Notes under the pieces: model-generated
Databases searched by the model: none
What the model was told of the DNA's origin: nothing
The model's input: only the letters and a program-made list of their open reading frames with translations
From: Paenibacillus taichungensis
Lineage (GTDB): Bacteria > Bacillota > Bacilli > Paenibacillales > Paenibacillaceae
Direction: 5' to 3'
Length of the DNA: 64,000 nucleotides
Assembly: GCF_003287275.1 (NCBI RefSeq)
Contig: NZ_QEVW01000008.1
Location: forward strand, 186,001 to 250,000
Shown here: in pieces, positions 4,983 through 39,216 of the stretch
How positions within the stretch are numbered: the stretch's first letter is position 1
Layout: every line of letters starts with the position of its first letter
Program-made: the position numbers and the translations under genes

Positions 4983-5005
4983 GCCGGGAGCTCCGGCTGA
5001 ATGGA

Positions 5006-5034
5006 GACACTCCCCATGTGGGGGTGTCTTTTTT
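5006..5034 (+). terminator. Rho-independent terminator after the response regulator
   Basis: A 9-bp stem (GACACTCCC pairing with GGGGGTGTC, one G-T pair), a five-base loop, then TTTTTT. It closes the kinase/regulator operon. Confidence 0.85.
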
Positions 5035-5102
5035 GTAATGCAATGAATGCACGATCTTTAATTAATCCATCAAATTATTGGTTTTTTCAACTATCTCAAA
5101 AT

Positions 5103-5116
5103 TGGTAGCGCTTGCA
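5103..5116. promoter_or_regulatory. Probable CcpA (cre) site before the transporter operon
   Basis: TGGTAGCGCTTGCA matches 11 of 14 positions of the consensus TGTAAGCGCTTACA and lies about 130 bases before the first permease start. This would put the transporter under catabolite repression. The rest of 4983-5243 shows no further gene. Confidence 0.5.
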
Positions 5117-5243
5117 TAATGGAGGTAGGAGTGAACGAGGAAATCCAAAGCAACAAAAGAGCTTAGGTCCAGTGTTGATTATAGGGGATTAATACTGGAT
5201 GTAGCTAAAGCGATAATGAACGAGATTATAAGGAGGGACAGCC

Positions 5244-6173: not shown

Positions 6174-6197
6174 GCTTGCGGCAAGGGGGTGCTGTCC

Positions 6198-7154: not shown

Positions 7155-7212
7155 GTCTGGTTGTGCCTGCCCTCAAAGGGCAGTAACAATAACATTGATA
7201 AGGGGGATACAC

Positions 7213-8712
7213 ATGAAGACAAGAAAAATCGCTCTGCTCATGGTTACTTTACTGCTTGCTTTTTCTACTGTTCTAGCAGGCTGCGGTGGCAGTAATACCA
7301 ATGATACAAGCGGAAATGCGGCATCCGGGGGAGAATCCGGCGATAAGGACACAGTGAAGCTCAAAGTATATCTGATTGGTGGTCCACAGCGCGATCTGCC
7401 AATGGTGCAGGAAGAAATGAACAAATACTTAATGGAGAAAATAAACACAACCGTCGACATCACGATGATTGACTGGGGTGATTATTCCAAACGTATGCCA
7501 GTCATTACCGCTTCGGGCGAAAATTATGATATCGCTTTCACCTCTTCCTGGGCTTATGACTATCTGCCAAATGCCACCAGAGGAGCCTTCCTGCCAATCA
7601 ATGATCTGTTGGATAAGTATGGTCAGGGTATTAAAGAGCAGCTTGATCCACGATTCCTCACAGGATCGCAGATTGATGGCCAAAACTATGCCGTGCCAGT
7701 TAATAAAGAGTTGGCTTCGCAATGGGTATGGCGCTTCAACAAGCAGTACGTTGATAAATACAACATGGACATCAGCAAGATTCGTACATTAGAAGATCTG
7801 GAGCCTTACCTGCAGCAAATCAAGGACAATGAACCAGCAGACATTACTCCGCTGGCTGTTCCGAAGGGCTTTAAGCCTTATCTGGCGTTCGACTTCCTGC
7901 TCGGTGACGAATTCCCGGTTGGTATCAACATGAATGGAGACACCGGTAAATACGTTAATGTGTTGGAATCTGAAGAGCTGAAAAGCTCATTGAAAACCAT
8001 CCGTAAATACTATCAGGCTGGTTATCTGCGCAAGGATGTAGCGACACTGGAAGGCATCGACAACATCAAAACAGGCAAATGGTTTGTTGACCGTGAACAG
8101 ACACAGCCGTACGCCGAACTGGGATGGTCCAGAAGTGCGGGCTATGATATCGTGACTACACCGATGCAGGATCCGGTTATTTTCACTGGCTCAGCAACAG
8201 GCGCTATGCATGCAATTTCGGCGAACTCCAAGAACCCGGAACGGGCTATGATGTTCCTGAACTTGCTCAATACCGATCCATATCTGCGTAACCTGATCAA
8301 CTACGGTATTGAAGGAACACATTACAACAAGATTTCGGATAATGTCATAGAGGATCTGCCAGCGATGAAGGACGGATTCCAGATGCCCGGTTTTGCTCTG
8401 GGTAACCTGTTCTTGACCTACATGCACAAGGAAGATCCAGCCGATAAGTGGGAAGCGTTCAAGGAATTCAACAATTCCGCGAAAGTTGCCCCGAGCTTTG
8501 GCTTCAACTTCAATCCTGATCCGGTGAAGACGGAAGTGGCTTCCATCTCCGCCATCGTGAAGGAATTCTACCCATCCATCATGACGGGAGCTGTTGACCC
8601 GGATGAGCATCTGCCGAAAGCGATCGAGAAGTTGAAAGCGGCAGGTCTGGATAAAGTGATTGCGGAAGCGCAAAAGCAGTACGACGAATGGAAAGCTGCA
8701 AATCAAAAATAA
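7213..8712 (+). CDS. Extracellular sugar-binding lipoprotein (DUF3502 type)
   Basis: A 499-residue solute-binding lipoprotein. A basic and hydrophobic signal peptide ends in the lipobox LAGC (Cys near residue 23), followed by a Ser/Gly/Asp-rich linker. The body has the extracellular binding-protein fold, and the C-terminal part (about 360-495) resembles DUF3502, typical of LplA-like proteins. I chose ATG 7213 over TTG 7195 because AGGGGGA sits at 7201-7207 and the signal peptide then begins normally. As the last gene of the transporter operon, it gives the importer its specificity. The streptococcal N-glycan importer has a comparable setting, but the ligand here is inferred. Confidence 0.92.
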   Translation: MKTRKIALLMVTLLLAFSTVLAGCGGSNTNDTSGNAASGGESGDKDTVKLKVYLIGGPQRDLPMVQEEMNKYLMEKINTTVDITMIDWGDYSKRMPVITASGENYDIAFTSSWAYDYLPNATRGAFLPINDLLDKYGQGIKEQLDPRFLTGSQIDGQNYAVPVNKELASQWVWRFNKQYVDKYNMDISKIRTLEDLEPYLQQIKDNEPADITPLAVPKGFKPYLAFDFLLGDEFPVGINMNGDTGKYVNVLESEELKSSLKTIRKYYQAGYLRKDVATLEGIDNIKTGKWFVDREQTQPYAELGWSRSAGYDIVTTPMQDPVIFTGSATGAMHAISANSKNPERAMMFLNLLNTDPYLRNLINYGIEGTHYNKISDNVIEDLPAMKDGFQMPGFALGNLFLTYMHKEDPADKWEAFKEFNNSAKVAPSFGFNFNPDPVKTEVASISAIVKEFYPSIMTGAVDPDEHLPKAIEKLKAAGLDKVIAEAQKQYDEWKAANQK

Positions 8713-8734
8713 CCTGAATTATAAAGTAGACATG

Positions 8735-8773
8735 GAAACGTCTGTCCTGGTTTGACGGGCGTTTCTTTTTTTA
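8735..8773 (+). terminator. Terminator after the transporter operon
   Basis: A 12-bp stem (GAAACGTCTGTC with GACGGGCGTTTC, including G-T pairs), seven-base loop, then a T-rich tract. It separates the ABC operon from the GH85 gene. Confidence 0.85.
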
Positions 8774-8812
8774 CCCTGATTGGATTGCCAAAAATGGATT
8801 GGAGGGTATGGC

Positions 8813-11470
8813 ATGAAAAAACTTGGTGCGAGTCTCATATTTGTAGTATTGGTATGCGCTGTTCTTTCCTCAGCGGCCTTGGCGAAGCAACCTTATTCAT
8901 CCTATTGGCTGCCTGAACAATTGCTTAACTGGAATCCAGCTTCCGACCCGGATGCGGCCTTCAACCGGAGCACTATTCCACTCCAAAGCCGATTCACAGG
9001 AGAGGCAGTTAACCCGAACGCAACGAAAGATCCCAAAGTGATGGCCTTGTCTGCACTGAACCAGGGAACCAGCGGCGTTCCATCACAGGGATCGGATACA
9101 TTTTCTGCAAATACGTTCTCTTACTGGCAGTATGTTGACAAGCTCGTATATTGGGGTGGCTCGGCGGGTGAAGGTATTATTGTGCCGCCAAGCGCTGACA
9201 CGATTGATGCGGCACACCGGAACGGAGTGCCAATCATGGGCACAGTGTTCTTCCCGCCATCCGTATACGGTGGAAAATATGAGTGGGTGAAGCAAATGCT
9301 TCAGCAGAACAGCGACGGCTCCTTCCCGGCTGCGGATAAACTGATAGAGGTGGCAGAGTATTACGGTTTTGACGGTTGGTTTATCAACCAGGAGACTGAA
9401 GGTGGAACAGCCACTGACGCACAGTTAATGAAGACATTCCTCCGTTATCTTCAAGATCATAAGCCCGCGGGTATGGAGATCATCTGGTATGATTCCATGA
9501 CGAAGGAAGGCAATATTTCATGGCAAAATGCGCTGACGGACCGGAATGCGATGTTCCTTCAGGATAACGGGAACAAGGTATCGGACAGCATGTTCCTGAA
9601 TTTCTGGTGGAATGATCTTGGCAGTTCTGCGGCCAAAGCCAAAAGCCTGGGCAGATCGCCATTTGAACTGTTCGCAGGTATTGATGTGGAAGCAAAAGGA
9701 TACGATACCAGTCTGAAATGGAATTTGCTGTTTCCTGAGGGGAAACCGGCTGTAACTTCCCTCGGCATTTATCGGCCGGATTGGTCGTACAACAGCGCGG
9801 ACAGCATGACCGATTTCTTTGCTCGTGAAAATAAATTCTGGGTAGGGCAGAACGGCAACCCGGCCAATACGGGGACAAGCCAGGCCTGGAAAGGGATTGC
9901 GAACAATGTGGTTGAATCATCGCCGGTGGACCAACTGCCATTCACGACCAACTTCAACACGGGCAGTGGCGAGAAATTCTATGTGGATGGCACGCAGGTG
10001 CGGGAGACTGGATGGAATAATCGCAGTTTGCAGGACGTACTTCCGACATGGCGCTGGCTGACAGAGAGTAAAGGTAACGCACTTACGCCGTCCCTGGATT
10101 GGTCGGATGCCTACTATGGGGGCAGTTCCCTCAAGGTATCGGGTACGCTAAGTTCGGCGAATGCCACCCATCTGAAACTGTATCAAACCGATCTGAAGAT
10201 TGAGCCAGCTACCAAGCTGTCGATCACGTACAAAACGCAGAACAAGCCGAGCATGAAGGTTGGCCTGGCTTTTGCAGACCGTCCTGACCAGTTCGTCTTT
10301 CTGGATGTAAAAGACAAAAAGGCATCGGGGTGGACGACGGACATCTTGAATCTGACGCCTTACAAAGGAAAGCGGATTGTGGCATTGTCTCTGCATTTTG
10401 ACAGCAAGGAAATCATATCGGATTATGACATCCATATTGGTCAGATATCCATTCGGAACAATTCTAATCCAGTGAAGCCACTTGAAGCAGTTCAAGAATT
10501 GAATGTCATCCAATCCGATTTCCGCGGGGGTATATACGGTGATGCCAGATTGCAGTGGAAAGCACTGGATGAGGAAGTTCAGCAGTATGAGATTTACCGT
10601 GTTCTGCCCGACGGCAAAGAGACTTGGGTGGGTGCGACCACCAATAACGTCTTCTATGTGCCTGAGATGAAGAGAATCAACGCGGAACAGGCAACTATAC
10701 TGAAAGTCGTAGCAGTGAATGCAAAATATGAGCGAGGCCAAGCTGCAAGCGTGACCATCCAGTGGCCAGCGTATCCGAAGCCGGAAGCAGGATTCAAGGC
10801 CGATGCAACACTTATCACACCTGGCCAGCAAGTGCATTTCACTGATCTCTCTTCCGAGGTGACGGAAGGCTGGTCTTGGACTTTTGAGAATGGCAGTCCG
10901 GCTGTCAGCACGGAGCAAAATCCAGTGGTAACGTATGACAAGGAAGGCACGTACAATGTGACGCTTACAGCTACCAACAGTTCGGGGCAGGATACCGTAA
11001 CGAAGCAAGCTTTGATCACCGTAAGCAAGGGTGCTTCCGGGATCAAAAATGTCGCACTTGGCAAAACGGCCACTGCCGACCATGCCTGTGGACCTGCTGA
11101 AGGTGCGGGAAAGGCAATTGACGGCAAGGTGACGGACAACAGCAAGTGGTGCGCACTGGGTAACCAGCCGCATTGGCTGCAAGTTGATCTTGGCAAAGAA
11201 CATCAGATCAGCGGTTTTGTCATCAAACATGCGGAGAGCGGTGGGGAATGGTCTGGTTTTAATACAAGCGACTATTCGATCCAGGTCAGTGCTGATGGCG
11301 TGAATTGGTCAGATGTAGTTCATGTACAGGGGAACGCCGCAGCCGAAACCTCGGATGCAATTGCGCTGGTCAAGGCTCGTTATGTGAAGCTGAATGTGCT
11401 GAAACCTACGCAGGGCGGTGATACCGCAGCCCGAATCTATGAATTTGAGGTTCATGGGTTGCAGCCGTAG
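8813..11470 (+). CDS. Secreted endo-beta-N-acetylglucosaminidase, GH85
   Basis: An 885-residue secreted enzyme. A signal peptide ends near ALAKQ, then comes a GH85 catalytic domain (about 40-400). GH85 enzymes cut the GlcNAc-GlcNAc core of N-glycans, releasing the glycan from the protein. The motif GFDGWFINQETEG gives the catalytic pair Asn192 and Glu194. A beta-sandwich and an Fn3-like region follow (to about 660), then a PKD domain (about 665-745, WSWTFENG) and an F5/8 type C (CBM32-like) domain to the end. There is no SLH or sortase signal, so it is probably released. I chose ATG 8813 because GGAGGG lies at 8801-8806. With the importer and GH38 mannosidase next door it should supply free glycans for uptake. 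Confidence 0.93.
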   Translation: MKKLGASLIFVVLVCAVLSSAALAKQPYSSYWLPEQLLNWNPASDPDAAFNRSTIPLQSRFTGEAVNPNATKDPKVMALSALNQGTSGVPSQGSDTFSANTFSYWQYVDKLVYWGGSAGEGIIVPPSADTIDAAHRNGVPIMGTVFFPPSVYGGKYEWVKQMLQQNSDGSFPAADKLIEVAEYYGFDGWFINQETEGGTATDAQLMKTFLRYLQDHKPAGMEIIWYDSMTKEGNISWQNALTDRNAMFLQDNGNKVSDSMFLNFWWNDLGSSAAKAKSLGRSPFELFAGIDVEAKGYDTSLKWNLLFPEGKPAVTSLGIYRPDWSYNSADSMTDFFARENKFWVGQNGNPANTGTSQAWKGIANNVVESSPVDQLPFTTNFNTGSGEKFYVDGTQVRETGWNNRSLQDVLPTWRWLTESKGNALTPSLDWSDAYYGGSSLKVSGTLSSANATHLKLYQTDLKIEPATKLSITYKTQNKPSMKVGLAFADRPDQFVFLDVKDKKASGWTTDILNLTPYKGKRIVALSLHFDSKEIISDYDIHIGQISIRNNSNPVKPLEAVQELNVIQSDFRGGIYGDARLQWKALDEEVQQYEIYRVLPDGKETWVGATTNNVFYVPEMKRINAEQATILKVVAVNAKYERGQAASVTIQWPAYPKPEAGFKADATLITPGQQVHFTDLSSEVTEGWSWTFENGSPAVSTEQNPVVTYDKEGTYNVTLTATNSSGQDTVTKQALITVSKGASGIKNVALGKTATADHACGPAEGAGKAIDGKVTDNSKWCALGNQPHWLQVDLGKEHQISGFVIKHAESGGEWSGFNTSDYSIQVSADGVNWSDVVHVQGNAAAETSDAIALVKARYVKLNVLKPTQGGDTAARIYEFEVHGLQP

Positions 11471-17462: not shown

Positions 17463-17520
17463 AACGAAGGATGCGTTGCATTGGCATATCTAATTTTATA
17501 TGAATGAAACAATTGCGATA

Positions 17521-17558
17521 GGGATTAACGGGTGTATCCGTTAATTCCTTCGTTTTTT
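17521..17558 (+). terminator. Terminator after the aldo/keto reductase
   Basis: GGGATTAACGG pairs with CCGTTAATTCC (one G-T pair), six-base loop, followed by TTCG and a run of nine T. Confidence 0.85.
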
Positions 17559-17675
17559 TTTGAGGAAAAAGGTCTTTTGCACCCTACTCTGTTGGTTCTT
17601 AGGTGTTCAGTGATTGTTAAGAACTGCTTGCTATATTGGTACAGAACGTTATCAGAAACCTAAGGAGGAGACCAT

Positions 17676-19169
17676 TTGAGTTTACACACTAAAAAGGGTG
17701 CAAGAGTCAAAAGAACACGATGGAGTGTGCTTGCTCTTGTCATTACATTACTCACAAGCGTGGGTTTTCCAGCTTCATCGGCTCTGGCTGCAACAGAACC
17801 CGTTTCATTAAACAGACCTACAGATATCGAGTTCTATAAGACGGCTAATGGTGAAACAGAGTTGCTGATTGCAGACACTGGAAACAATCGGGTTATTCGG
17901 TCTACACCGGAAGGCAAGGTACTATCGACGATAGAGGTCAACCAGGTGACGGCGGTTACGATGGGGAACGATGGGCTGATCTACGCTGCTGAATCCGGAG
18001 CAGCCGCAAAAGTACATATTTTTAATCAGGATGGTACTGTGAACGGACAGCCTATAGACGTTATGCGTAAATTTTCGTTGTATCCGCATCCAGATGAGGA
18101 TAAGCAGCCTTACATTCGAAACTTAATTCGATATAAGCAGGGCGATTATGAAAGACTGTACGTTTTCTTCAACGTGTATAGAGAAATGAATAATGCTCCA
18201 GCGAGATATGGCACATTGGCCAACTTCGCTTTGGGACACGAAGGATGGGGAGGTTTGAGTGGCGCATTCTCAGAATACTCTGGCGCAACCCAGGGAACTG
18301 GAGATCAGGTATGGTATACCAATGGGCAGGGAGCGATGCTTTACCCCGTTACAAGTATACTGAATTCAACAGATAAACTCGGAGACTTGACACTGGATCC
18401 AGTAAACAAACGTGTATACGTTGTGAGCGAGAACCAGATCATGCAGAGTGGCTACGAGGGCTTTGTATCTCCTGAACGTCCTGTCCTGAGTACGTGGGCG
18501 AGTGGAAACGAGACATATCCGATTGACCTCACTAATCAGATTGCCTTCGGACCGGAAGGCGAATTGTATATGGCTGATACGGCGAGAGACCGAATCGTTG
18601 TATTCAGTGCAGATGGCAGCTCTGCCCGTATCTTGGGACTAACGCTGGATAACACCCCCAAACCTGTTGTAGGCACGTTTAACAAAACGGTAAAACAGGG
18701 GCTCCCGGTATCCTTTACATCTACGGATTTTACCAGTAACTATGCCGACCCAGAGAACCGGTCTATGACGGATATTCGCATCGCATCCCTGCCTGACAGC
18801 GGTAAATTACAACTGAATGGTACAGACGTTGTGAAGAATCAGGTGGTTCCTGTCGCAGAGTTGAACACATTGGCCTTCGTTCCTTCTTCGGCTTTTACAG
18901 GGATCAAGACAACGTTCGGCTGGCAGGCCAAGAATGGAGCTGTGTTTTCGGATAGCGTGGAGGTAACGATCATGCTGCGAATTAAAGGGGATGCGAATGG
19001 AGACGGTGTGATTACACCTGCAGATGCCTTATTGGTGAATAAATATATCAAAGGTTTAATCACGTTAACACCGAGTCAGATTGAAGCGTTGGACATGAAT
19101 GATGATGGTGTACTGGATGCCGAAGATTCAGCCCTGATTATGGGCGTTTACTTGGGGATTAATTCTTAA
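17676..19169 (+). CDS. Secreted beta-propeller protein with type I dockerin
   Basis: A 497-residue exported protein. The TTG start is supported by AAGGAGG seven bases upstream. A signal peptide ends near ALAAT (about residue 38). Residues about 45-330 contain NHL-like propeller repeats (LLIADTGNNRVIRST, LYMADTARDRIVVFS). An Ig-like region follows (about 330-430). The C-terminal 60 residues are a type I dockerin: two calcium-loop repeats, GDANGDGVITPADALLVNKY and DMNDDGVLDAEDSALIMG. Dockerins bind cohesins. The next gene, 21 bases on, encodes two cohesins with SLH anchors, so this protein is probably fixed to the cell surface through it. Enzymatic activity, if any, is unknown. Confidence 0.88.
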   Translation: MSLHTKKGARVKRTRWSVLALVITLLTSVGFPASSALAATEPVSLNRPTDIEFYKTANGETELLIADTGNNRVIRSTPEGKVLSTIEVNQVTAVTMGNDGLIYAAESGAAAKVHIFNQDGTVNGQPIDVMRKFSLYPHPDEDKQPYIRNLIRYKQGDYERLYVFFNVYREMNNAPARYGTLANFALGHEGWGGLSGAFSEYSGATQGTGDQVWYTNGQGAMLYPVTSILNSTDKLGDLTLDPVNKRVYVVSENQIMQSGYEGFVSPERPVLSTWASGNETYPIDLTNQIAFGPEGELYMADTARDRIVVFSADGSSARILGLTLDNTPKPVVGTFNKTVKQGLPVSFTSTDFTSNYADPENRSMTDIRIASLPDSGKLQLNGTDVVKNQVVPVAELNTLAFVPSSAFTGIKTTFGWQAKNGAVFSDSVEVTIMLRIKGDANGDGVITPADALLVNKYIKGLITLTPSQIEALDMNDDGVLDAEDSALIMGVYLGINS

Positions 19170-19190
19170 AATTAGAAGGGAGTGACTATC

Positions 19191-21554
19191 TTGCCAAACA
19201 ATAAGGGACATTTCATTTCTGTAAAATCCAAACGATTCATGAAGGCGCTTCTGGCTGTGCTGCTCTTGGTTTCCATGAGCTTTTCGTGGCTTCCTCAAGC
19301 ACATGCCAGTGTAGATCCTGTAATTCATATCGGAGAAGTATCTGGTAAACCAGGAGACATCGTCGAAGTGCCTGTATCCTATGATTCAAAAGGCTCAGAA
19401 TTTTCTTTTTATCACTCTGAATTGTCCTTTGCCTATGATTCGGCTGTGCTTGAACTCGTTGAAGGGGACAAGGTTGTAAACCGCCAAGCTTATGAGAATT
19501 ATCAGGGAGTCAGCCTAACTGAAGATACGTCTGCTCCAGGATATATATCAGTGATAATGACGACGCAAAATTTCATTCAGGAATCCACGGCGCTGTATTC
19601 CCTTCATTTTAAAATTAAGGAGAGTGCGGCTATCGGTCAAAGTTCAGTAGCTCTTCATGCGGGCGCACTGGTAGAGGAATTTGATCCGTTTCAGGTGACT
19701 GGGGAAAATGGGCAAGTTACTGTGCTGGCCGATGTGAAACCGGTGGGGAGTGTTGTTGTCTACATTGGATCAGAAGAAGGAAAAGCAGGTGACAAGGTAA
19801 CGCTAACTGTCGACACGGTGGCGCTTTCTCAACCGATTGGCTCTTACGGGGTACGTCTGAAGTTCAACCCGGCAGCCTTACAGGTGACTGATGTTACAGG
19901 CAGTCCGGGAATACGACATCATGCGAATAATGAGACAGGATCGCTTATCGTGGGCTGGAGTGATGAAAATGGAGGGCTGAGTCCTATCCCGGCGTTCGAG
20001 ACCTACCAGACGTTGTTCAAAATTGAATTCACGATTACCTCCAATGCTGTTGCAGGCGAGTATCCGGTGGAGTTCGTCAACGAGACGCTACTAGAACACT
20101 TCACGGTGACGGATACCGATGGAATTGAAATGCATAAACAGGCAATATCAGGCGATATCACGGTCGTTGGTGAGCCAACAACACCAACAACGCCAACAAC
20201 ACCATCCAATCCGGGTTCGTCCGGTTTAGGAAGTTCATCCGGTGGTTCGACGCCAACCTCACCGTCTGCAAGCACTTCCGAGAAGATTACGCTAAATGTG
20301 ACCAATGAACGGAATGCAAATGTAGTTGTTTCTACAACGATCATCGAAAGAACAACAGGGGCAGATGGACGTAAAAAGGATGTGGTGAATCTGACAGCCG
20401 AGCAGACTTCTCGTGCGATTGAGAGCTTGAAGAAGGCCGGTTCGAATATTGCCCGGATCATGATTCCGGATGAGAAGGACGAGGTATCCGAACTGAATGT
20501 GAAGCTGCCAGCCAAGTCTACTTCACTGATGGCAGATGAGAAGATGAATCTGTATATTGAAACGGATAACGCTTCCCTTCAACTTCCGGCGAATTCTTTA
20601 AAGGGACTGGGCTCGGATATATTCTTCCACCTTGTTCCGATTAAGGATGCCGCAGGGCGTGAAGCGGTGGAGCAGCGTATCCAGAAAGATCCATTAATCA
20701 TCAAAGCATCAACAGATCCTGCCGACTTCCGCTTGGTAGGACGTCCAATGACGATTGAGACGAATATGAGCAGTCGTCCAGTGATGGTTGTGCTTCCGGT
20801 CAGAGATAAGAACCTGACGCAGAAGGAACTGGACAAGCTGCAAGTATTTATCGAACATAGCGATGGGACAAAGGAACTCGTTAAGGGTAAAATCGTTAAG
20901 TTTAATGGAACAGATCAACCAGGAATTGAGTTTGAAGTCACCAAGTTCAGCACATTTTCCATTATTTTGATGAATGGGGGCCAGTCATCAGCCTACATTC
21001 AAGGATTTGCGGACGGCACGTTCAGACCGAATCAAGCGGTTCAGCGTGCTGAAATGGCTGCCTTATTATCTCGAATACTGCCGTCTGGCAGCGACGAGGC
21101 TGCGCACAATAGATCATATCGGGATATGCCGGTTGCGGAATGGGCACGCGAAGCGATTACAAAGGCTACTGCAGCAGGTTACATGCATGGCAATGCTGCC
21201 GGGGATTTCATGCCAGGGCGTTCCATTACACGAGCCGAGATGGCTGTCATTATTGAACGGATTTTGAAAACTCAGGAAGCAACTGCAGAAACAACGGCTG
21301 TGCCAAACGAAGCTGCTGATCTTACACAGCACTGGGCACGCGAAGCAGTTCAGCGTGTATTGGCAGCAGGCATCATGAGTGTGTCGCAAGACGGAGCATT
21401 CCGTCCAAACGATGCTGTGACACGAGCAGAGGCCGTTACATTGCTGAATCGTCTGGTTCATATCGAACCTGATCTGTCCAGTACATCCATGTGGAAGGAT
21501 GTATCTGTTGGTCATTGGGCTCACGGCGCAATCCAGGCTGCATCCCAAAATTAG
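19191..21554 (+). CDS. Cell-surface scaffold: two cohesins and three SLH domains
   Basis: A 787-residue surface protein. TTG 19191 is preferred to GTG 19182 because GAAGGGAG lies eight bases before it. After the signal peptide (cut near AHASV) there are two cohesin-like domains, about 42-182 (GKPGDIVEVPVSYDSKGSEF) and about 187-327 (GKAGDKVTLTV). A Pro/Thr and Gly/Ser linker and a domain often seen in Paenibacillus S-layer proteins follow (about 363-595). Three SLH repeats end the protein (for example FADGTFRPNQAVQRAEMAAL). SLH domains bind wall pyruvylated polymers; cohesins bind dockerins. The dockerin gene directly upstream makes an anchored pair likely. It is much smaller than classical scaffoldins. 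Confidence 0.88.
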   Translation: MPNNKGHFISVKSKRFMKALLAVLLLVSMSFSWLPQAHASVDPVIHIGEVSGKPGDIVEVPVSYDSKGSEFSFYHSELSFAYDSAVLELVEGDKVVNRQAYENYQGVSLTEDTSAPGYISVIMTTQNFIQESTALYSLHFKIKESAAIGQSSVALHAGALVEEFDPFQVTGENGQVTVLADVKPVGSVVVYIGSEEGKAGDKVTLTVDTVALSQPIGSYGVRLKFNPAALQVTDVTGSPGIRHHANNETGSLIVGWSDENGGLSPIPAFETYQTLFKIEFTITSNAVAGEYPVEFVNETLLEHFTVTDTDGIEMHKQAISGDITVVGEPTTPTTPTTPSNPGSSGLGSSSGGSTPTSPSASTSEKITLNVTNERNANVVVSTTIIERTTGADGRKKDVVNLTAEQTSRAIESLKKAGSNIARIMIPDEKDEVSELNVKLPAKSTSLMADEKMNLYIETDNASLQLPANSLKGLGSDIFFHLVPIKDAAGREAVEQRIQKDPLIIKASTDPADFRLVGRPMTIETNMSSRPVMVVLPVRDKNLTQKELDKLQVFIEHSDGTKELVKGKIVKFNGTDQPGIEFEVTKFSTFSIILMNGGQSSAYIQGFADGTFRPNQAVQRAEMAALLSRILPSGSDEAAHNRSYRDMPVAEWAREAITKATAAGYMHGNAAGDFMPGRSITRAEMAVIIERILKTQEATAETTAVPNEAADLTQHWAREAVQRVLAAGIMSVSQDGAFRPNDAVTRAEAVTLLNRLVHIEPDLSSTSMWKDVSVGHWAHGAIQAASQN

Positions 21555-21623
21555 AATGTTTATTGCTGATGCTGCTTTGTTCCTATCCTGCGCTAGGGAC
21601 GAGCAGCATCAGATGAACTCCAG

Positions 21624-21647
21624 AGGCATCTGCGGATGCCTTTTTTT
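21624..21647 (+). terminator. Terminator after the cohesin/SLH gene
   Basis: AGGCATC, loop TGCG, GATGCCT and seven T. A longer hairpin just upstream (about 21565-21612, CTGATGCTGCT with AGCAGCATCAG) may help to end or protect the message. Confidence 0.88.
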
Positions 21648-21745: not shown

Positions 21746-24700
21746 ATGACTGTCATCAGAAAGGATCGGTTTTTGTTAGGGGTTGGATTAATGACAATGC
21801 TGCTCGCACTCGTGGTTGTGTTGCAGATCGGGGGTGGACGAGGGACGCCTGTTGCCAAGCAGGGGACTCTGGAGCTGGTAGACTTCTCATGGACAAGCGA
21901 TACCATTATTCCACTGGATGGAGAATGGGAATTCTATCCTGAGCAGCTGCTCTCACCACAGCAGATCCATCTAACGCGTATCAAGCCCATCATGATGCAA
22001 GTGCCTGGGAACTGGGATGAGGATGTGATTAATCAAGGCTATCCAATGAGCGGGAAGGGATATGGGACCTATCGCCTGATTGTGCGGAATTTGCCTCAGG
22101 GGGAGCAACTGGCAATTGCCAAACGATATGTTCGATTCGCGGATGCGATGTATCTGGATGGGCAGCAGATGAGCCGATCAGGGCTTCCGAGCACGTCTGC
22201 GGCATCCTATATACCACGCAATGAGCCATATACGATTTATTTTCATACGAAACAAGCAGAGCTCGAAATTGTGTTACAGGTAGCTAATTTCGATTTTCGC
22301 AGCGGTGGTATCTACAACTCGATTGAACTGGGGTATGCCAGTCAGATTGAAAGAAGAACGATGATTCAGTCTGGACTGGAGCTGTTCATCATGGGGATTG
22401 TAGTCATCTTTGGTTTGCTGTTTTTCTATCTCTATCTTCGTCTGCATCGTGATCGCATTCAGTTGCTTTATGCGCTATTTTTCTTGGGTTTTGCCGTCAT
22501 TGTGGTGACGAATGGGGAGCGTCTGTTATTACAGCTTGCGCCGGGAATTCCCTTTGAGTTCGCCTTTAAAATGAAATATGCAGCGGTATATGGTGTATCC
22601 GTCATTGTTAGCATGATTACATGGAAACTGGCACCTGGGCTGGGGCAAACGATCAGAAGATGGCTTCGGCTGCCAAGTGTTCTGCTTGCTCTATACGTCG
22701 CCCTGATCATGATATCTCCATTTCGAGTGTATTCCTCCATTCAGGAAGCCATGTATATCGTTAACCTGTTGTCTTATGCTGTAGCCTTTGCTGTCATTCT
22801 GCTTCACTATGTTCTGAAGAAATATGAGAGCAAGAGTCGTTCCCAGTTACAACTTCTCATCACATGTATCTGGCTTATGCTTGTAAATTACGTTCTTGGC
22901 ATCCTCGTAACGTGGTATCCGGTGAGTCAGATTCTACTTAATTGTACAACATTAGTAATTTTGAGTGTCTTCGCCGTGCTCCTGATCTATCAATATGTCG
23001 GAGCTTATGATGCAATGCAGCGGCTTACGCAACAGCTTCAATTATCGGACAAAGTAAAGGATGAGTTTTTGCTGCTGACATCGCATGAACTGAACTCTCC
23101 GCTTCACAGCATCATTCATTTATCCCGTTCTCTTCTAGGAACGTCGTTGAGACGCACGAATGAGACCGAAATTCGAAGTAAGCTTCAACTCATACGCAAT
23201 ACATCATACCGGATGTCCAATCTTGTGAATGATCTGATCGATATGTCGCGATTTAGAGACGGCAATATGAAGATTGCGGTGGGCACTGTTGATCTGGTAT
23301 CCTGCCTTTCTTTGGTCACTGAGGTGCTCGGGTTTCTGGCTACGGGAAAAGGAATCGTTATGGTACGCAGGCTGGAGCTTGAGGCCCGCTATGTTATGGC
23401 AGATGAGAGCCGTCTGCTGCAAGTGCTGTACAACCTTGTTTATCATATGATTGGTCAGCATAGTCACAGGGAGCTGGTATTCGAGTGCGAGCGGCATCAA
23501 GAGCGAGTGCGGATTATACTTCGTTTCGAGGCATACACGGAACAGTTTACCCGATTGGGGAGAGAAGACCGCGCTGATTTACAGAGTATGCAGAACGGTT
23601 CAGCAGGCTTGTCTGTTTCAGCAGAGCTTGTCGGCATTATGGGGGGGCGGCTTACGGTCAACGATGCAACAGAATCAATTCAGATCGAGCTTCCATCCGC
23701 AGAAAATGCTGGCATGGAGAGCGTTACTGAGACTGCAGTATCTCAGGAAACGTACGTAGAGGATTTATCGGAATTACCATCTAGCAACGCTTCAGCAGCC
23801 ATATTAATTGCAACAACCGATCTTGTGGACATGGAGCACTTGAATACATTACTTTCTACAGAAGGTTTTCAGGTTAGCTTTGCGGACTCCGACATAGAGG
23901 TGCAATCATTACTTGCAAGCGGTAAGCTGCCTGATCTCGTCATCGTGGATGCGATGCTGCCTGCGGTTACAGGTTATAAGGTGTGTAAACAGATTCGGCT
24001 GGAATTCAGCCAGGTGGATCTGCCGGTTCTGTTTATCAACATGCGCAGTACACCAGCGGATATTGAGGCATGCATTAAGGCAGGAGGCAACGATTTTATT
24101 ACACGCCCGCTGGATGCGGGAGAGATTCTGGTCCGAGTACATACCTTGCTCGGTATGAAACGACTGGTGAAGGAAGCTGCGAACAACGAAATGGCGTTTC
24201 TTCGTTCACAGATCAAACCGCATTTTCTGTATAATGCCTTGGGAACGATTATGTCGTTATGTTTCACAGACGGGCCCAGAGCGGGAGAGCTGTTAGGCAG
24301 CTTCAGTCGTTATTTGCGAATTCTTTTTCATCTGGATAACTCGGAGGAGTTGATTCCGCTCAGCAAGGAGATGGAGTTGATTCAGGCCTATGTGGAGATT
24401 GAGCAGGAGCGCTTCGGTTCACGTCTTCAGGTTGAGTTGGATGTGGACAGATCACTGAATTCCTGTAAAGTGATGCCACTCCTCATCGAACCGCTGGTGG
24501 AGAATGCTATCCGGCATGGGGTGTCGAAAAAGATTGATGGAGGAACGGTGCGGTTATTCATCCGAAAATGTGAAAATCGGGTTCAAGTGGTGGTTGAGGA
24601 TGATGGGATCGGCATGTCTCCTGAGCAGGTCGCAAGTATTCTGGAAAGAGGCCATGCCGAACAGGGAATTGGCTTGCAAAATGTACAGAGGCGACTGAAA

Positions 24701-24781
24701 CACATGAACGGACAAGCACCTGTGATCCAGAGTGAACAAGGTCACGGGACGAAGATAACGATTGAATTCCCATACCAATAA
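21746..24781 (+). CDS. Hybrid sensor kinase: 7TM, HisKA, receiver and LytS-type kinase
   Basis: A 1011-residue membrane protein. After a first helix comes an extracellular jelly-roll (7TMR-DISM-like, about 35-190), then seven or so helices (about 205-440). A HisKA domain follows with His447 (TSHELNSPL); its ATPase region is poorly conserved. A receiver-like domain has Asp735 (VIVDAMLPAVTGY) but FITRP where a Lys is usual. A second kinase module of LytS/YesM type ends the protein (IKPHFLYNALG, His826; EDDGIGMS). ATG 21746 is chosen over GTG 21719; its GGAG is close to the start, so this is less certain. It is followed by a response-regulator gene, its likely partner. The signal is unknown. Confidence 0.85.
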   Translation: MTVIRKDRFLLGVGLMTMLLALVVVLQIGGGRGTPVAKQGTLELVDFSWTSDTIIPLDGEWEFYPEQLLSPQQIHLTRIKPIMMQVPGNWDEDVINQGYPMSGKGYGTYRLIVRNLPQGEQLAIAKRYVRFADAMYLDGQQMSRSGLPSTSAASYIPRNEPYTIYFHTKQAELEIVLQVANFDFRSGGIYNSIELGYASQIERRTMIQSGLELFIMGIVVIFGLLFFYLYLRLHRDRIQLLYALFFLGFAVIVVTNGERLLLQLAPGIPFEFAFKMKYAAVYGVSVIVSMITWKLAPGLGQTIRRWLRLPSVLLALYVALIMISPFRVYSSIQEAMYIVNLLSYAVAFAVILLHYVLKKYESKSRSQLQLLITCIWLMLVNYVLGILVTWYPVSQILLNCTTLVILSVFAVLLIYQYVGAYDAMQRLTQQLQLSDKVKDEFLLLTSHELNSPLHSIIHLSRSLLGTSLRRTNETEIRSKLQLIRNTSYRMSNLVNDLIDMSRFRDGNMKIAVGTVDLVSCLSLVTEVLGFLATGKGIVMVRRLELEARYVMADESRLLQVLYNLVYHMIGQHSHRELVFECERHQERVRIILRFEAYTEQFTRLGREDRADLQSMQNGSAGLSVSAELVGIMGGRLTVNDATESIQIELPSAENAGMESVTETAVSQETYVEDLSELPSSNASAAILIATTDLVDMEHLNTLLSTEGFQVSFADSDIEVQSLLASGKLPDLVIVDAMLPAVTGYKVCKQIRLEFSQVDLPVLFINMRSTPADIEACIKAGGNDFITRPLDAGEILVRVHTLLGMKRLVKEAANNEMAFLRSQIKPHFLYNALGTIMSLCFTDGPRAGELLGSFSRYLRILFHLDNSEELIPLSKEMELIQAYVEIEQERFGSRLQVELDVDRSLNSCKVMPLLIEPLVENAIRHGVSKKIDGGTVRLFIRKCENRVQVVVEDDGIGMSPEQVASILERGHAEQGIGLQNVQRRLKHMNGQAPVIQSEQGHGTKITIEFPYQ

Positions 24782-24807
24782 ATGAAGCAAAGGGGGAACC
24801 TGTAGTG

Positions 24808-25932
24808 ATGCAAGCGTATTTGGTGGATGACGAGCCGCATGCTTTGAATATGCTGGAAATGTTCCTTACTCGAACAGGTAAAGTACACGTCGCAGGGCGT
24901 GCGGCTAATGGCTTTGATGCGCTTGTGGCACTTCGGAACATTCACCCGGATATCTGGTTTCTGGATATTGAGATGCCAGGAATGAGCGGATTGGAGTTGG
25001 CAGCGAACATACACGAGGTGGAACCGGACGCCATGATCGTGTTCACGACTGCCTATGATCAGTATGCTGTGGCCGCTTTCGAGCATGAAGCGCTGGATTA
25101 CCTGCTCAAACCAATCGAGATGGAGCGCTTGTCACGGACCATTGAGCGATTGACAAAGGAGAAGAACAGACCCACGGATCACGTTGTCGTCAAGACTGAT
25201 AATATGGACAAGTTGTTTGTCCAATTGCTTGGGACATTCCGTGTTGCAATCACAAATGGAAAGACGATGATGTGGCGAACAGCCAAAGAGAAGGAGCTTT
25301 TTGCGTATTTGCTGCTGAATAACCCTGCCACAAGTGCAGTTCACCGGGATCGTATTATCGAAAAGTTATGGCCGGATGAACCTTATGAGAAAGCCAAAAT
25401 TTATTTGCACACCTGTGTGAGCCTGTTGCGAAAAAATTTGCGGAACGTTGGTATTGAACATTTGTTGAGATATAAAAGTGAGCACTATATCCTGGATAAG
25501 GAACGAATCAGAGCAGACGTATATGATTTTCTGGACATTTCGTTCAGGATGGAGCAAGAAGATATGCCGATATCTCTAATCGAGCAAACCTTACATTTGT
25601 ATCTGGACGAACTGTTACCTCAGGAGGATTACCCATGGATAGTGGAGCTAAGTCATAAGCTGGAGCAAATTTCACTGGAGCTTAAGCTGAAACTTTCCGA
25701 GAAATATCTGGATTCACGTAACGGCAGAAAAGCAGCAGAGGCAGCAGAACGTGCAATCAGTCAATCGCCATATGAAGAAGAAGCCTATCGTCGTGCCATG
25801 CAGGCGTACTTGTACATGGGTAAACACGACCATGTGCTGCGGATCTATCGCAATCTCAAAGAAAGATTGACTGAGCTTAACATTCAGCCCTCCTTTCTCA
25901 CGAGACAGTTATATGAACAGATTGAGGTCTGA
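24808..25932 (+). CDS. Response regulator with winged-helix and BTAD (SARP-like) output
   Basis: A 374-residue regulator. The receiver domain has DDEPH, the phospho-acceptor in WFLDIEMPGMSGLE (about residue 53) and the conserved Lys in YLLKPIE. A winged-helix region (about 135-225, FAYLLLNNPATSAVHRDRII) and a helical bacterial-transcriptional-activation domain (about 230-372) follow. GTG 24805, one codon upstream, is an equally spaced start. The gene begins 27 bases after the hybrid kinase and is surely its partner. The target genes cannot be named; the neighbours on both sides are surface or exported proteins. Confidence 0.88.
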   Translation: MQAYLVDDEPHALNMLEMFLTRTGKVHVAGRAANGFDALVALRNIHPDIWFLDIEMPGMSGLELAANIHEVEPDAMIVFTTAYDQYAVAAFEHEALDYLLKPIEMERLSRTIERLTKEKNRPTDHVVVKTDNMDKLFVQLLGTFRVAITNGKTMMWRTAKEKELFAYLLLNNPATSAVHRDRIIEKLWPDEPYEKAKIYLHTCVSLLRKNLRNVGIEHLLRYKSEHYILDKERIRADVYDFLDISFRMEQEDMPISLIEQTLHLYLDELLPQEDYPWIVELSHKLEQISLELKLKLSEKYLDSRNGRKAAEAAERAISQSPYEEEAYRRAMQAYLYMGKHDHVLRIYRNLKERLTELNIQPSFLTRQLYEQIEV

Positions 25933-26239: not shown

Positions 26240-27640
26240 ATGTCAATGAAAAAAGTGTTAGTGGTGTCCATGGTAGCAACAGTGTTAGGTACTTCTGTGG
26301 TTAGTGCAGTATCGGCTGCTCCTGCAGTGAAACCTGCGGCTAATGCAGCTCAGGTGCAAAATTCCACGCTTACAATAAACGGTAACAGCGTCATCGTTCG
26401 TTCCATCGTTAAAAATGGGGAGACACTTGTGTCACTTCGTGATGTGATCAAAGCCATCGGCGCACAAGCCGAAGTACATAGCGGAACGACGGTGATCAAG
26501 CTGAATGATCACAGCGTGACGCTCCAAAACAATAGCAAACAAATTGTGGTAGATGACGTCAAAGTGAATCTGAATCAACCGGTTACCATCATCGGTGGTA
26601 CAAGTTATATCGCTCTTCGTCCACTGGTGTCGGGCGTTGGCGGTACGATTGTCAAACGAAACGGACTGCTTGAGATCAGTACGGTATCCTTGATCGATGA
26701 AGTCGAGAATCCTCGTTTTGCCGGAGCGGATAAGCTGATTGTTTCCAAGAGCGACAACAATGGCAGAAACGATTATCTCGTGAATACAACAAGCGGCAAA
26801 TATGAGTTGTTGCTAACGACAGACGGTGGATCGGATCTCGTTATTTCGCCAAGTGGTGATCAAGCGGCTTATACGAATGCCGAAGGAGCCGTTTATATTA
26901 TTGATCTGAAGACCAAGGCTTCCAAACTGATCACGAGTGACAACAGCATCAAGCCTGAGTTGGTTTGGTCTGCTGACGGGAGTGCAATCTACTTCCTGCA
27001 AGGAGATAAAGGGTCTGTGATTGCCAAGCTGAATCTGGCGGATGGCGCGATTACGAAAGTGGTCGAAGACAAGGTGGATTATAAGGAAAACCTGAATGTT
27101 TCTGCTGACGGCAAGAAATTCATCTATACCGTAACAACACTTGGTACCGTAACTTCGGATACAACCAATGTGGATGAAGACAATGTCTCCATTGATTTCT
27201 CATCCAATCAACAGCAAATATTTTCGTATAACACAGGAGATTCAAAACCCGAGGCTGTGAAGCTTACAACATCAACCGACGACAAGGTATTTGTATGGTC
27301 TGCTGACGGACAAAAAGCCTACTACGTGAGTGTACCTTCCGAAGACGGTAAAGCATCGTTGCTGTCTGTGAATTCATCCCAAAAGTCTACGCCGGTGTAC
27401 ACCGAGTACGATGTAGAACAAGCTATTCTGTCAGGTGGAATCTTGTATGTACTGGCAGCCCAGGATGACAACAACAGCGTGATCCTTTCGATCGACCCGG
27501 TAACTGGAAAACAAACCAAGTTGTACACCGTATCTTCCGATGTATCATCCATCGCGGTTGCCGGATCACAGATCTCTGTGGTTGAGAACGGCCGAGTTCT
27601 GGTACAAGCTGGCGGAAGCTGGAGAGCCGTTACGAAGTAA
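26240..27640 (+). CDS. Exported copper-amine-oxidase-N-like and beta-propeller protein
   Basis: A 466-residue exported protein. The signal peptide ends near VSAAPA. Residues about 40-150 form a copper amine oxidase N-terminal-like domain (GETLVSLRDVIKAIGAQ and SYIALRPLVSGVGG), a wall- or ligand-binding module common in Firmicutes. Residues about 160-460 look like a TolB/WD40-like propeller with repeated VWSADG segments. There are no oxidase residues, so it is not an amine oxidase. It lies directly behind the Pho box and 55 bases before pstS, so it is probably co-transcribed with the phosphate importer. A function in phosphate capture or sensing at the wall is conjecture. Confidence 0.8.
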   Translation: MSMKKVLVVSMVATVLGTSVVSAVSAAPAVKPAANAAQVQNSTLTINGNSVIVRSIVKNGETLVSLRDVIKAIGAQAEVHSGTTVIKLNDHSVTLQNNSKQIVVDDVKVNLNQPVTIIGGTSYIALRPLVSGVGGTIVKRNGLLEISTVSLIDEVENPRFAGADKLIVSKSDNNGRNDYLVNTTSGKYELLLTTDGGSDLVISPSGDQAAYTNAEGAVYIIDLKTKASKLITSDNSIKPELVWSADGSAIYFLQGDKGSVIAKLNLADGAITKVVEDKVDYKENLNVSADGKKFIYTVTTLGTVTSDTTNVDEDNVSIDFSSNQQQIFSYNTGDSKPEAVKLTTSTDDKVFVWSADGQKAYYVSVPSEDGKASLLSVNSSQKSTPVYTEYDVEQAILSGGILYVLAAQDDNNSVILSIDPVTGKQTKLYTVSSDVSSIAVAGSQISVVENGRVLVQAGGSWRAVTK

Positions 27641-27695
27641 TGTTTTATATCAAATATGATCACAAGCTTTTTAATTCGAGAGGAGTTTAATTAAC

Positions 27696-28559
27696 ATGAA
27701 AAAATGGATCAAACCCTTCACAGCAATGCTTATGGCTGTATCTCTGATTGGTGGACTGGGTGGCGCAACGACAGCATCAGCTGCCAAGAGCACAGAGAAA
27801 GGTAAAATCGTCATTAACGGTTCCTCCGCATTACTTCCGCTGACACTTCAGGCAGCCAGCGAATTCAAAAAGGATAATCCAAAAGTTAAAATCTCGGCTT
27901 CCGCAGCAGGTTCCATCACAGGTCCCCAATCCGTTCGTAAAGGGATCGCGGACATTGGGGCTGTAGACTGGGATGCATCCAAAGATGTACCTGGCTTCAA
28001 GAAATTTGATGGCTTGGTAGCCAATCCGGTAGCTGTAACAGTGTTCACGGCAGTCGTTAATACCAATGTGGGTGTAAGCAATCTGACAACAAAACAACTG
28101 CAGGACATCTTCTCCGGCAAAGTGACAAACTGGAAGGAAGTCGGCGGATCGGATGCCAACATCGTTGTAGTTAACCGTAAATTTGGTTCCGGTACACGGG
28201 TTAACTTCCAACAAAAAGCACTGGATGGCAAGGACTTCATGAGCAAAGGGGACAACTACAAAGAGGTTGGCTCCAGCGGTGATATGAAAACAACGATTGA
28301 AACAACACCAAATGCAATCGGTTATATTGACCTTCCGTATGTAACTAGCAAAATGAAGGCTGTATCCATCAATGGCGTAGCACCAACAGAGAAAAACGTC
28401 CTGAACAAAACATACAAAGTATGGGGTATTGGATATTACATGACCAAAGGTCAACCTACGGGAGCAACGAAAGCGTTCATCGAGTATATCCAAAGCAGCA
28501 AGTTCCAGAACGGTTCCCTGAAAAAACTGAAATTCATTCCGCTTGCTGCCGTTAAATAA
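27696..28559 (+). CDS. pstS: Phosphate-binding protein PstS
   Basis: A 287-residue exported binding protein of the high-affinity phosphate importer. The signal peptide ends near ASAAKS; no lipobox Cys is present, so wall association must be by another route. Phosphate-binding stretches are INGSSALLPL (about 35-44), AAGSITGPQSVRKG and RKFGSGTRVNF (about 163-173). It precedes pstC, pstA and pstB in the conserved order. GAGGAG lies before the ATG. It is induced, presumably, through the Pho box at 26032. Confidence 0.95.
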   Translation: MKKWIKPFTAMLMAVSLIGGLGGATTASAAKSTEKGKIVINGSSALLPLTLQAASEFKKDNPKVKISASAAGSITGPQSVRKGIADIGAVDWDASKDVPGFKKFDGLVANPVAVTVFTAVVNTNVGVSNLTTKQLQDIFSGKVTNWKEVGGSDANIVVVNRKFGSGTRVNFQQKALDGKDFMSKGDNYKEVGSSGDMKTTIETTPNAIGYIDLPYVTSKMKAVSINGVAPTEKNVLNKTYKVWGIGYYMTKGQPTGATKAFIEYIQSSKFQNGSLKKLKFIPLAAVK

Positions 28560-28607
28560 CGAAAGCTGCGAACGTTCATCATTCTCGCATTTCATAAGGA
28601 AAGGGAT

Positions 28608-28640
28608 AGCCAGCTTCTGCGCACGGTCGCCAAGCTGGCT
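28608..28640 (+). promoter_or_regulatory. Hairpin between pstS and pstC
   Basis: AGCCAGCTT pairs perfectly with AAGCTGGCT around a 15-base loop, with no T tract after it. A structure at this place may slow decay of the pstS part of the message, which would make the binding protein more abundant than the membrane subunits. Confidence 0.5.
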
Positions 28641-28666
28641 TCTCTATGTGAAAGGAAGAGCCCTTC

Positions 28667-29635
28667 ATGATCGATTTAAATCCATCCACGAACAGCCCTG
28701 CTCCGAGTGAGCTTGGTCCAAGCATTGGCAAGGCTCCCGGATCGGGAACCCGTTTTGACCGTAAGGCGCGTTTAAGATGGTCCAATAAACTGTTTCGCAT
28801 GATCTGTATTGGCAGTACATTGTTCGTTTGTCTGGTTCTGTTATGCATTCTGGTTCTTATGCTTCGTACGGGCGTTCTGACCTTTGCGGATGTTTCGCTC
28901 AGCGAATTCTTTTTCTCTACCAACTGGGACCCGGAAAATGAGCATTACGGCGCACTGACCTTTATTCTGGGAACGCTGGCACTGACGGGGCTCACGATGC
29001 TGTTTGCCATTCCAATCTCCGTCATCATTGCTGTGTTTCTGGCCGAAATGACGCCAAAATGGCTTCGCCATATTCTGCGACCCGTATTGGATCTGTTGGT
29101 GGGTATTCCTTCTGTGGTATACGGTTTCTTGGGACTGACGATTCTCATCCCCTGGCTTAGGGATATCAGTGGACATGATCTGGCGGATGGATTGCTCGCA
29201 GCATCCATCGTTCTGACGATTATGGTGCTGCCAACCATTAGCCGGATCAGTGATGATGCCATATCTGCTGTACCGAACAAATACCGGGATGCAGCTTATG
29301 CGCTGGGTACGAACCGATTCCAAACCATAACCCGTGTGGTCTTGCCTGCTGCAAGAGGCGGAATCATGTACGCCGTCATTCTCGGGATGACTCGTGCCAT
29401 TGGAGAGACGATGGCGGTGGTAATGGTCATCGGCAATACGGCGCAGCTCGCGAACAGTCTGTTCACGCCAACAGCCGTGCTGACAAGTAATATCGTTATG
29501 CAAATCTCAAGCGTCGAATTCGATTCCACCTGGAATCACGGGCTATACATGATGGGCTTTATCCTGCTTGCCATTTCCATCTTGATGATTGTAGCCGTAA
29601 GAATGCTTCAGAAGAAAGGGGGACGCTACTCATGA
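28667..29635 (+). CDS. pstC: Phosphate ABC transporter permease PstC
   Basis: A 322-residue inner-membrane permease with six predicted helices. Family motifs include VGIPSVVYGFLGL (about 145-157), the cytoplasmic loop YRDAAYALGTNRFQTITRVV for the PstB contact, and RAIGETMAVVMVIGN. The N-terminal 40 residues form a hydrophilic tail. AAAGGAAG precedes the ATG. It overlaps pstA by four bases. Confidence 0.95.
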   Translation: MIDLNPSTNSPAPSELGPSIGKAPGSGTRFDRKARLRWSNKLFRMICIGSTLFVCLVLLCILVLMLRTGVLTFADVSLSEFFFSTNWDPENEHYGALTFILGTLALTGLTMLFAIPISVIIAVFLAEMTPKWLRHILRPVLDLLVGIPSVVYGFLGLTILIPWLRDISGHDLADGLLAASIVLTIMVLPTISRISDDAISAVPNKYRDAAYALGTNRFQTITRVVLPAARGGIMYAVILGMTRAIGETMAVVMVIGNTAQLANSLFTPTAVLTSNIVMQISSVEFDSTWNHGLYMMGFILLAISILMIVAVRMLQKKGGRYS

Positions 29636-39184: not shown

Positions 39185-39216
39185 TGTTAACATGAAAAGC
39201 AACCGAATACAAAATG

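Follow-up and report, generated by a model that had tools for sequence, protein, structure and literature searches.

A predicted cohesin-dockerin surface pair with a beta-propeller cargo, and a direct repeat that tracks the neighboring regulator, in Paenibacillus taichungensis

The window analyzed here, a whole stretch of 64,000 nucleotides (positions 186,001 to 250,000 of contig NZ_QEVW01000008.1) from the 6.99 Mb, 57-contig Paenibacillus taichungensis genome GCF_003287275.1 (G000), contains two adjacent genes that together encode a dockerin and two cohesins. The first (17676..19169) encodes a dockerin-tagged, NHL-type propeller protein that is predicted to be secreted, and the second (19191..21554) an anchoring protein with two cohesins and three SLH domains; both begin at TTG codons, and both lie on the forward strand, as do the flanking hairpins, repeat, kinase and regulator described below. 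An earlier reading made from the letters alone (the sequence-only reading) had described the two products as a two-part version of a cellulosome. The propeller and anchoring genes are adjacent in all 12 loci of the window's type (type A) that we compared, and their pairing is therefore not a matter of chance.

The propeller protein comprises 497 residues, arranged as an N-terminal signal peptide (...SSALA/AT, judged by eye), a propeller, an immunoglobulin-like (Ig-like) stretch and a C-terminal dockerin. Assignment of the propeller (residues 40-325; 17793..18650) to the NHL type draws on several searches: the NHL Pfam profile scores 19.3 bits and so just misses its cut-off of 20, NHL propellers of solved structure (the Pizza designs, TRIM71 and PknD) are found by a profile search, and the AlphaFold2 model, with ten-residue means of 78-97 over residues 41-320 and a whole-model predicted TM-score (pTM) of 0.61, has about 25 strands, which fits six blades. 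Foldseek matches propellers, NHL-containing ones first, with modest TM-scores (0.38/0.40 for the top match, and up to 0.64 by target length among the matches listed). The Ig-like spacer (residues 329-433; 18660..18974) gives weak, sub-threshold Big_9/cadherin-like Pfam matches, and the type I dockerin that follows (18984..19139) matches Dockerin_1 (PF00404) over residues 437-488 at E=1.6e-11, with 44.7 bits against a cut-off of 22.9. Both calcium loops are present, and their aspartates are invariant across the 12 type A loci. The profile match is strong even though the predicted local distance difference test (pLDDT) score of the full-protein model is 30-53 over residues 421-497; the alignments of 9 and 12 rows used for modelling (fused chain, described below, and full protein) are probably too shallow for dockerin modelling.

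The anchoring protein also appears by eye to carry a signal peptide (...PQAHA/SV), and the sequence-only reading had proposed one on both proteins. Its two cohesins, cohesin 1 at 19323..19721 (E=3.5e-12) and cohesin 2 at 19755..20159 (E=4.6e-9), both exceed the cut-off of PF00963 (overall E=2.8e-19, 70.1 bits against 24.1), and two cohesins are the minimum by which scaffoldins are defined in the passages cited here of a published survey (PMC11557425). They are followed by a conserved module without a Pfam match (20280..20981) and by three SLH domains, presumably the cell-wall anchor, at 20982..21551 (PF00395 in three stretches, E=3.3e-26). Significant matches to both PF00963 and PF00404, the two profiles that the sequence-only reading had named for checking, are thus present, as are the three SLH domains that it named. 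Neither protein of the pair matches an anti-phage defence family at E<=0.01.

The two genes are set between terminator-like hairpins. One of these, a 13-pair stem plus T run at 17520..17549, closes an upstream Rrf2/aldo-keto reductase unit, and downstream of it lie a heptamer direct repeat, TGTTCAG-N4-TGTTAAG, with an 11-bp period (17604..17621), in the -35 position and predicted to be a response-regulator operator, and 10 bases past the repeat a -10-like hexamer, TATATT (17632..17637), at conserved spacing. The mechanical open reading frame (ORF) of the anchoring gene begins at GTG 19182; a TTG at 19191, spaced from a ribosome-binding site, has a counterpart by eye in 12 of 12 loci, and with this start the intergenic gap is 21 bases, in agreement with the sequence-only reading. 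The second hairpin (21622..21643), kept with its T run in 10 of 12 loci by eye, appears to close the operon of the pair. The next unit consists of a hybrid sensor kinase (21746..24781; Pfam 7TMR-DISM, HisKA, REC and His_kinase) and a SARP-like response regulator (24805..25932; REC, Trans_reg_C and BTAD). The kinase most likely starts at ATG 21746 (the mechanical ORF runs from 21719), and the 191 bases between the pair and this start hold the hairpin. Our terminator and promoter scan was not above chance overall (9 terminator-like sites against 7.1 in shuffles, 8 promoter-like sites against 14.5), and the sigma-70 scan requires a -35 hexamer and therefore does not list TATATT.

The inventory of dockerins and cohesins in the species is small. 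At E<=0.001 the window's genome has two dockerins and four cohesins. In G058, a same-species genome assembled as a single contig, the window-type pair accounts for every match, namely one dockerin and two cohesins; a genus-specific profile applied to eight chosen genomes (to dockerins only at this looseness) found no further dockerin in G000 or G058 at E<=10. The other dockerin of G000 lies on contig C43, in a second pair whose genes stand in the same order: one for an 843-residue dockerin protein and, after it, one for a 920-residue two-cohesin SLH protein. With one dockerin in G058, and with the other dockerin of G000 having a two-cohesin partner of its own, no second dockerin answers for the second cohesin in this species; the sequence-only reading had left it open which other dockerin proteins use that cohesin, and these profile searches of G000 and G058 offer none to spare.

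Neither protein of the window pair has a glycoside hydrolase, lyase or carbohydrate-binding module family over the Pfam cut-off, in keeping with the earlier statement that cellulases and carbohydrate-binding modules are absent, and the scaffold (19191-21554) in particular shows no carbohydrate-binding module by Pfam. Because neither protein has an enzyme or such a module, the pair is a cohesin-dockerin surface pair and not a cellulosome. We consider it improbable that the pair is a minimal cellulosome-like device for handling polysaccharides with the propeller as its enzyme or carbohydrate binder. The joint is that of a cellulosome, the propeller gives weak, sub-threshold matches to the virginiamycin-lyase and SGL-like propeller families, and the cargo of the paralogous C43 pair, built of DUF6242 repeats (BNR-like in our reading), CBM_X2, a divergent InlB-type repeat and the dockerin, does include a carbohydrate-binding family; against this stand the Pfam results for the window proteins and the finding that neither dockerin protein of G000 matches any enzyme family, glycoside hydrolases included, over cut-off.

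The arrangement recurs well beyond the species. In a sample of 75 genomes, all of those returned by a genus search, a cohesin is found in 39 and a dockerin in 41. Forty-four of the 67 dockerin matches have a cohesin downstream on the same strand, in a separate reading frame and within 6 kb; six share one frame with a cohesin, one (in G017) follows a two-cohesin gene that is itself preceded by another dockerin gene, and 16 have no cohesin within 6 kb, while 13 of 86 cohesin matches lack a dockerin within that distance. This sorting of the 67 dockerin and 86 cohesin matches was done by hand from the match rows. The 44 pairs comprise 12 of type A, five of the C43 type (B), four mixed (P) and 23 with a single cohesin (C), types being assigned from 40 loci plus ORF sizes, with type C counted by size (10 of its 23 loci were read). 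Overlapping genes were lost in the ORF sweep, examples being the upstream dockerin gene of L082 and the dockerin gene at L080, whose translated stretch stays open in a single frame. In the wider family, cohesins occur in 158 and dockerins in 140 of 245 genomes. A scan seeded with two dockerin peptides recovered the complete type A protein from six Paenibacillus records, among them P. xylanexedens and P. amylolyticus; its other 31 loci match mainly at the dockerin end.

The cargo differs among these pairs. Ten further dockerin proteins of the genus were scanned, and clear NHL repeats were found in one alone, the type P locus L084 of G041, where the NHL protein accompanies a four-cohesin scaffold (the NHL-dockerin and four-cohesin SLH genes, at 2965-8837 on the minus strand, are adjacent and overlap by their mechanical starts). 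DUF6242 repeats occur in L007 and L078, and L082 matches a YCF48-like propeller below threshold; L081 and L083 have no propeller-family match. Three type C proteins are Ig-like and hold their dockerin internally, and L096 combines fibronectin III with RHS repeats. A separate genus-wide set of dockerin frames of approximately 1,320-1,340 residues (for example G048:C10:87115) has no cohesin within 6 kb, and several of the genomes that carry these frames have no cohesin at all.

A tree of 62 cohesins (quick search, midpoint root, with a program warning that several long branches meet) separates the two cohesin positions: in types A and B the first cohesins and the second cohesins each form their own group. 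One supported side (34 rows, support 96) unites the second-position cohesins of types A, B and P with the lone cohesins of type C. It also takes in cohesins 1 and 3 from the four-cohesin scaffold; when those two are omitted, support for the second-cohesin side is 66 and not significant. The first cohesins fall outside it and are not one class, those of type A forming one branch and those of type B, with three of type P, another. We read the two slots as old and non-equivalent, rather than as recent duplicates. Cohesin 2 would be a likelier receptor for the dockerin than cohesin 1, since the single-cohesin pairs keep the second class.

Conservation along the two proteins is uneven. Mean pairwise identity over the 12 type A loci is 90% in both the dockerin and the Pfam-unmatched module that links the cohesins to the SLH domains, 77% in the SLH domains and 72-73% in the cohesins, and the propeller middle (residues 126-235; 18051..18380) has a mean of 42% and a minimum of 15%. 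In two relatives whose neighboring aldo-keto reductase is ∼94% identical to that of the window, the propeller proteins are 71% (L068) and 59% (L075) identical. Positive selection in the propeller middle was considered and is not claimed: the dN/dS (nonsynonymous to synonymous rate) of 0.60/1.3 comes from saturated distances with 41 of 66 pairs usable, so that our claim is restricted to variability.

The direct repeat upstream of the pair is new here. All 12 type A loci have TGTT(C/A)AG-N4-TGTTAAG (L072 and L075 have T in place of the first G), beginning 72-76 bases before the start codon, with TATA-like letters 10 bases on and variable sequence upstream of the repeat. The exact pattern occurs once in G000, at this operon, and G058 has one site. 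Across the 75 genomes the repeat is found in 13 and a homologue of the regulator (E<=1e-60, best 26 candidates scored per genome) in 12; 12 genomes have both, one has the repeat alone and none the regulator alone, so that 62 of the 63 genomes without the regulator also lack the repeat (Fisher p=5e-13, with relatedness uncorrected). A reversed-pattern control gave no site in any of the 75. The 11-bp direct repeat before the operon thus tracks the SARP-like response regulator, and the kinase is the pair's downstream neighbor at 11 of 12 type A loci. The sequence-only reading had suggested that the kinase might control the pair, and because the repeat tracks the regulator across these genomes, control by the neighboring sensor system is strongly hinted. 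SARP sites are described, in the passages of PMC10972967 used here, as heptameric direct repeats with spacers of 4-15 bases that lie over the -35 region, with 'classical' 11-bp units; the regulator has the Trans_reg_C and BTAD domains of that family, and its candidate site the two heptamers, 4-base spacer and -35 position. It differs from such regulators in having a receiver domain and a neighboring sensor kinase, and in predicted targets that are surface proteins rather than antibiotic clusters.

The repeat also occurs at other sites. A relic locus in G006 (L143 2600-3110) keeps the repeat, kinase and regulator, and between repeat and kinase just the last residues of the SLH region are readable. 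Searching 25 genomes (13 with the repeat and 12 without) gave 16 matches, none of them in the 12; besides the 12 loci and the relic there are three further sites, each preceding an SLH protein, two of which have NHL propellers. In G006 these precede a 1292-residue NHL-SLH protein and, with three mismatches allowed, a 1511-residue SLH protein, and in G016 a 1124-residue NHL-fibronectin-SLH protein. The SLH-fused NHL proteins L144 and L145 share with the window pair the kind of head, the anchor and the predicted operator, and differ in being one polypeptide where the window has a dockerin-cohesin joint. Because the same predicted operator precedes SLH-fused propellers in relatives, the cohesin-dockerin joint seems to take the place that a peptide bond has in those proteins. 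The two-part cellulosome of the sequence-only reading therefore survives in its joint, a very small set of cohesin, dockerin and SLH domains, and fails in its implied function, the other predicted targets of the repeat being SLH-fused surface proteins. At L146 1484-9308 (+), G006 also encodes a kinase and a BTAD regulator and, after them, a protein of 1085 residues in which a single cohesin, NHL matches and SLH domains are combined, so that one chain holds head, cohesin and anchor. Similarly built repeats with other letters precede other pairs: TGTTCAG-N4-GGTTCAG is found at two of five type B loci, including the C43 pair, which has an OmpR-type regulator and kinase downstream, and at five of the 10 type C loci read, and TTTTAAG-N4-TTTTAAG at L081 and L083, upstream of their dockerin genes.

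The explanation that we favor, and regard as probable, is that the pair is a dedicated two-part surface display regulated by the neighboring sensor and regulator, with the dockerin as plug and the propeller as head. The propeller protein would be secreted, and its calcium-dependent dockerin would attach it to the operon's other product, the anchoring protein, which would in turn be fixed to the cell wall by its three SLH domains. Cohesin 2 would more likely receive the plug, and cohesin 1 may take a second copy of the propeller protein or some other partner. The variable propeller middle presumably meets the outside, whether ligand, matrix, host or phage, with the dockerin as its constant plug, and the sensor kinase and SARP-like regulator would switch the operon, the regulator binding the 11-bp repeat in place of a -35 box. 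A broader proposal, which we advance tentatively and hold at somewhat less than an even chance, is that one two-component system switches interchangeable NHL propellers that are SLH-fused or dockerin-cohesin-clipped according to strain, with a hypervariable head under diversifying pressure and a constant plug. If so, heads could be exchanged without changing the anchor.

Several observations weigh against the dedicated display. The first concern the joint. Separate pairing is not universal, given the 13 unpartnered cohesins, 16 unpartnered dockerins and six dockerins in a shared frame, and a propeller cargo is no general rule, clear NHL repeats being present in one of the 10 further dockerin proteins. 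An AlphaFold2 model of a single fused chain (the dockerin, cohesin 1 and cohesin 2, with intergenic stop codons read as Gln under table 6 and eight relatives in the alignment) reached a pTM of 0.40, with dockerin pLDDT of ∼40 and cohesin block means mostly of 58-92, from a shallow alignment. This lack of a docking signal, together with the unpartnered modules of the genus, would fit a reading in which the cohesin and dockerin folds are mere spacers that do not bind one another, in secreted proteins that are just co-expressed. We think this highly improbable, as the dockerin-then-cohesin order recurs in several unlike operon types and the dockerin is conserved far more than the rest of its protein.

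The joint might also be less exclusive than a dedicated display implies. G016 and G037, which both have the pair, carry extra free dockerins of the same kind, 58-65% identical to the window's dockerin compared with 25-57% for other types, and these would make the scaffold in those genomes a small hub, whose cohesin 1, cohesin 2 or both also hold non-propeller dockerin proteins from the cell itself or from its neighbors. The distinctness of first and second cohesins in the tree fits such a hub, as does the two-cohesin scaffold of G017 with dockerin genes on both sides, and the scavenging of foreign dockerins is raised for Paenibacillus guangzhouensis in the cited passages of PMC11557425. In the window's species, however, no spare dockerin was found, the single one of G058 and the two of G000 each having a scaffold of their own, and a hub there seems rather unlikely. 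We note that L096 4018-5238 (-) and L097 3833-4543 (-) are free RHS-repeat dockerin proteins in two genomes that also carry the window-type pair, that L096 has two dockerins, and that the dockerins of L096 and L097 are nearer to that of the window than those of other types are. In G017 (L082 2460-7858 (-) and upstream), InlB-type repeats precede the downstream dockerin, by the scan, and the upstream one, by eye.

The remaining points against the dedicated display concern its regulation and its anchor. The 12 loci are related, two of them belonging to one species, and the co-occurrence of repeat and regulator does not amount to 12 independent events; moreover, G036 has the pair and the repeat and no regulator homologue at E<=1e-60. 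The case of G036 would fit a repeat that belonged to another regulator, such as PhoP, to which the neighboring sensor pair was unrelated. OmpR-type regulators also use 11-bp direct repeats, and phosphate-transport-like genes lie downstream in the window from 27696. In Streptomyces, PhoP and the SARP AfsR even have a common site, as described in the cited part of PMC10972967. Set against these are the absence of the repeat from 62 of 63 genomes without the SARP-like regulator and the single exact site in the window's genome, which is at this operon and not at pst. A PhoP would be expected genus-wide, and since the repeat is not, we judge this alternative unlikely. A group II intron lies just 3' of the pair in G036 (L071 2243-2932 (-)), the sole type A genome without a close regulator homologue. 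As to the anchor, SLH anchoring needs a wall-polymer pyruvyl transferase; the corresponding family, PF04230, is matched in the window's genome (E=1.1e-42), but it is found in eight of 14 control genomes, Escherichia coli and Bacillus subtilis included, so that its presence is not specific, proves little and makes for a weak link.

Both the joint and the anchor are known. In the cellulosomes of Clostridium/Acetivibrio, a dockerin protein is held by the type I cohesins of an SLH-anchored scaffoldin, as is predicted here, and among solved structures the cohesins nearest in sequence belong to scaffolding proteins (modules 6kg8, 6kgc, 2vn5 and 1g1k). The window pair differs in having a single cargo, no enzyme or carbohydrate-binding module and no primary scaffoldin, with cargo and anchor genes adjacent and a beta-propeller with a variable middle as the cargo. 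Cohesin and dockerin modules outside cellulosomes were reportedly described by Peer et al. in 2009. The pair shares with these a place outside cellulose degradation, and is set apart by its dedicated adjacent genes, small inventory and own likely regulator; a role beyond cellulose degradation is also raised for ANME archaea in the part of PMC9012536 cited here. Closest by genus is P. guangzhouensis, which, in the cited passages of PMC11557425, likewise has SLH-anchoring scaffoldins with at most two cohesins per scaffoldin, and in which 28 of 35 cohesin proteins are, by contrast, dockerin-cohesin adaptors, often with a glycoside hydrolase enzyme. The survey of scaffoldins described in those passages demanded a gene combining a dockerin and a glycoside hydrolase in the genome, so genomes with just such pairs as the present one would be passed over.

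By titles and abstract openings among the matches listed, we found no paper with a pair of dockerin-propeller and cohesin-SLH proteins as its subject, and as enzyme-free cohesins and dockerins are known in general, the novelty lies in the pair as a variant of the cohesin-dockerin surface system. Cohesin and dockerin have mostly been studied as the joint of enzyme complexes. Here the system takes a very small form that lacks an enzyme, carries one cargo and probably has a regulator of its own, and within one genus the order of dockerin gene, then cohesin gene, is found again in several dissimilar operon types. It is a clean system for asking what the joint is for when there is no enzyme, why two unlike cohesins are retained where there is one dockerin, and what a propeller head that varies encounters at the surface of Paenibacillus. 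It could also be used as a natural display system for a single cargo, its promoter ready-made.

Two further observations concern the rest of the window. Past the regulator, at 26240-29635, are genes for a copper-amine-oxidase-N protein with weak WD40-like matches, a phosphate-binding-like protein and a transport permease, those from 27696 being pstS- and pstC-like by our own reading. A Guanidine-I riboswitch is present at 39210-39330 (+), scoring 84.4 bits against a gathering score of 63.

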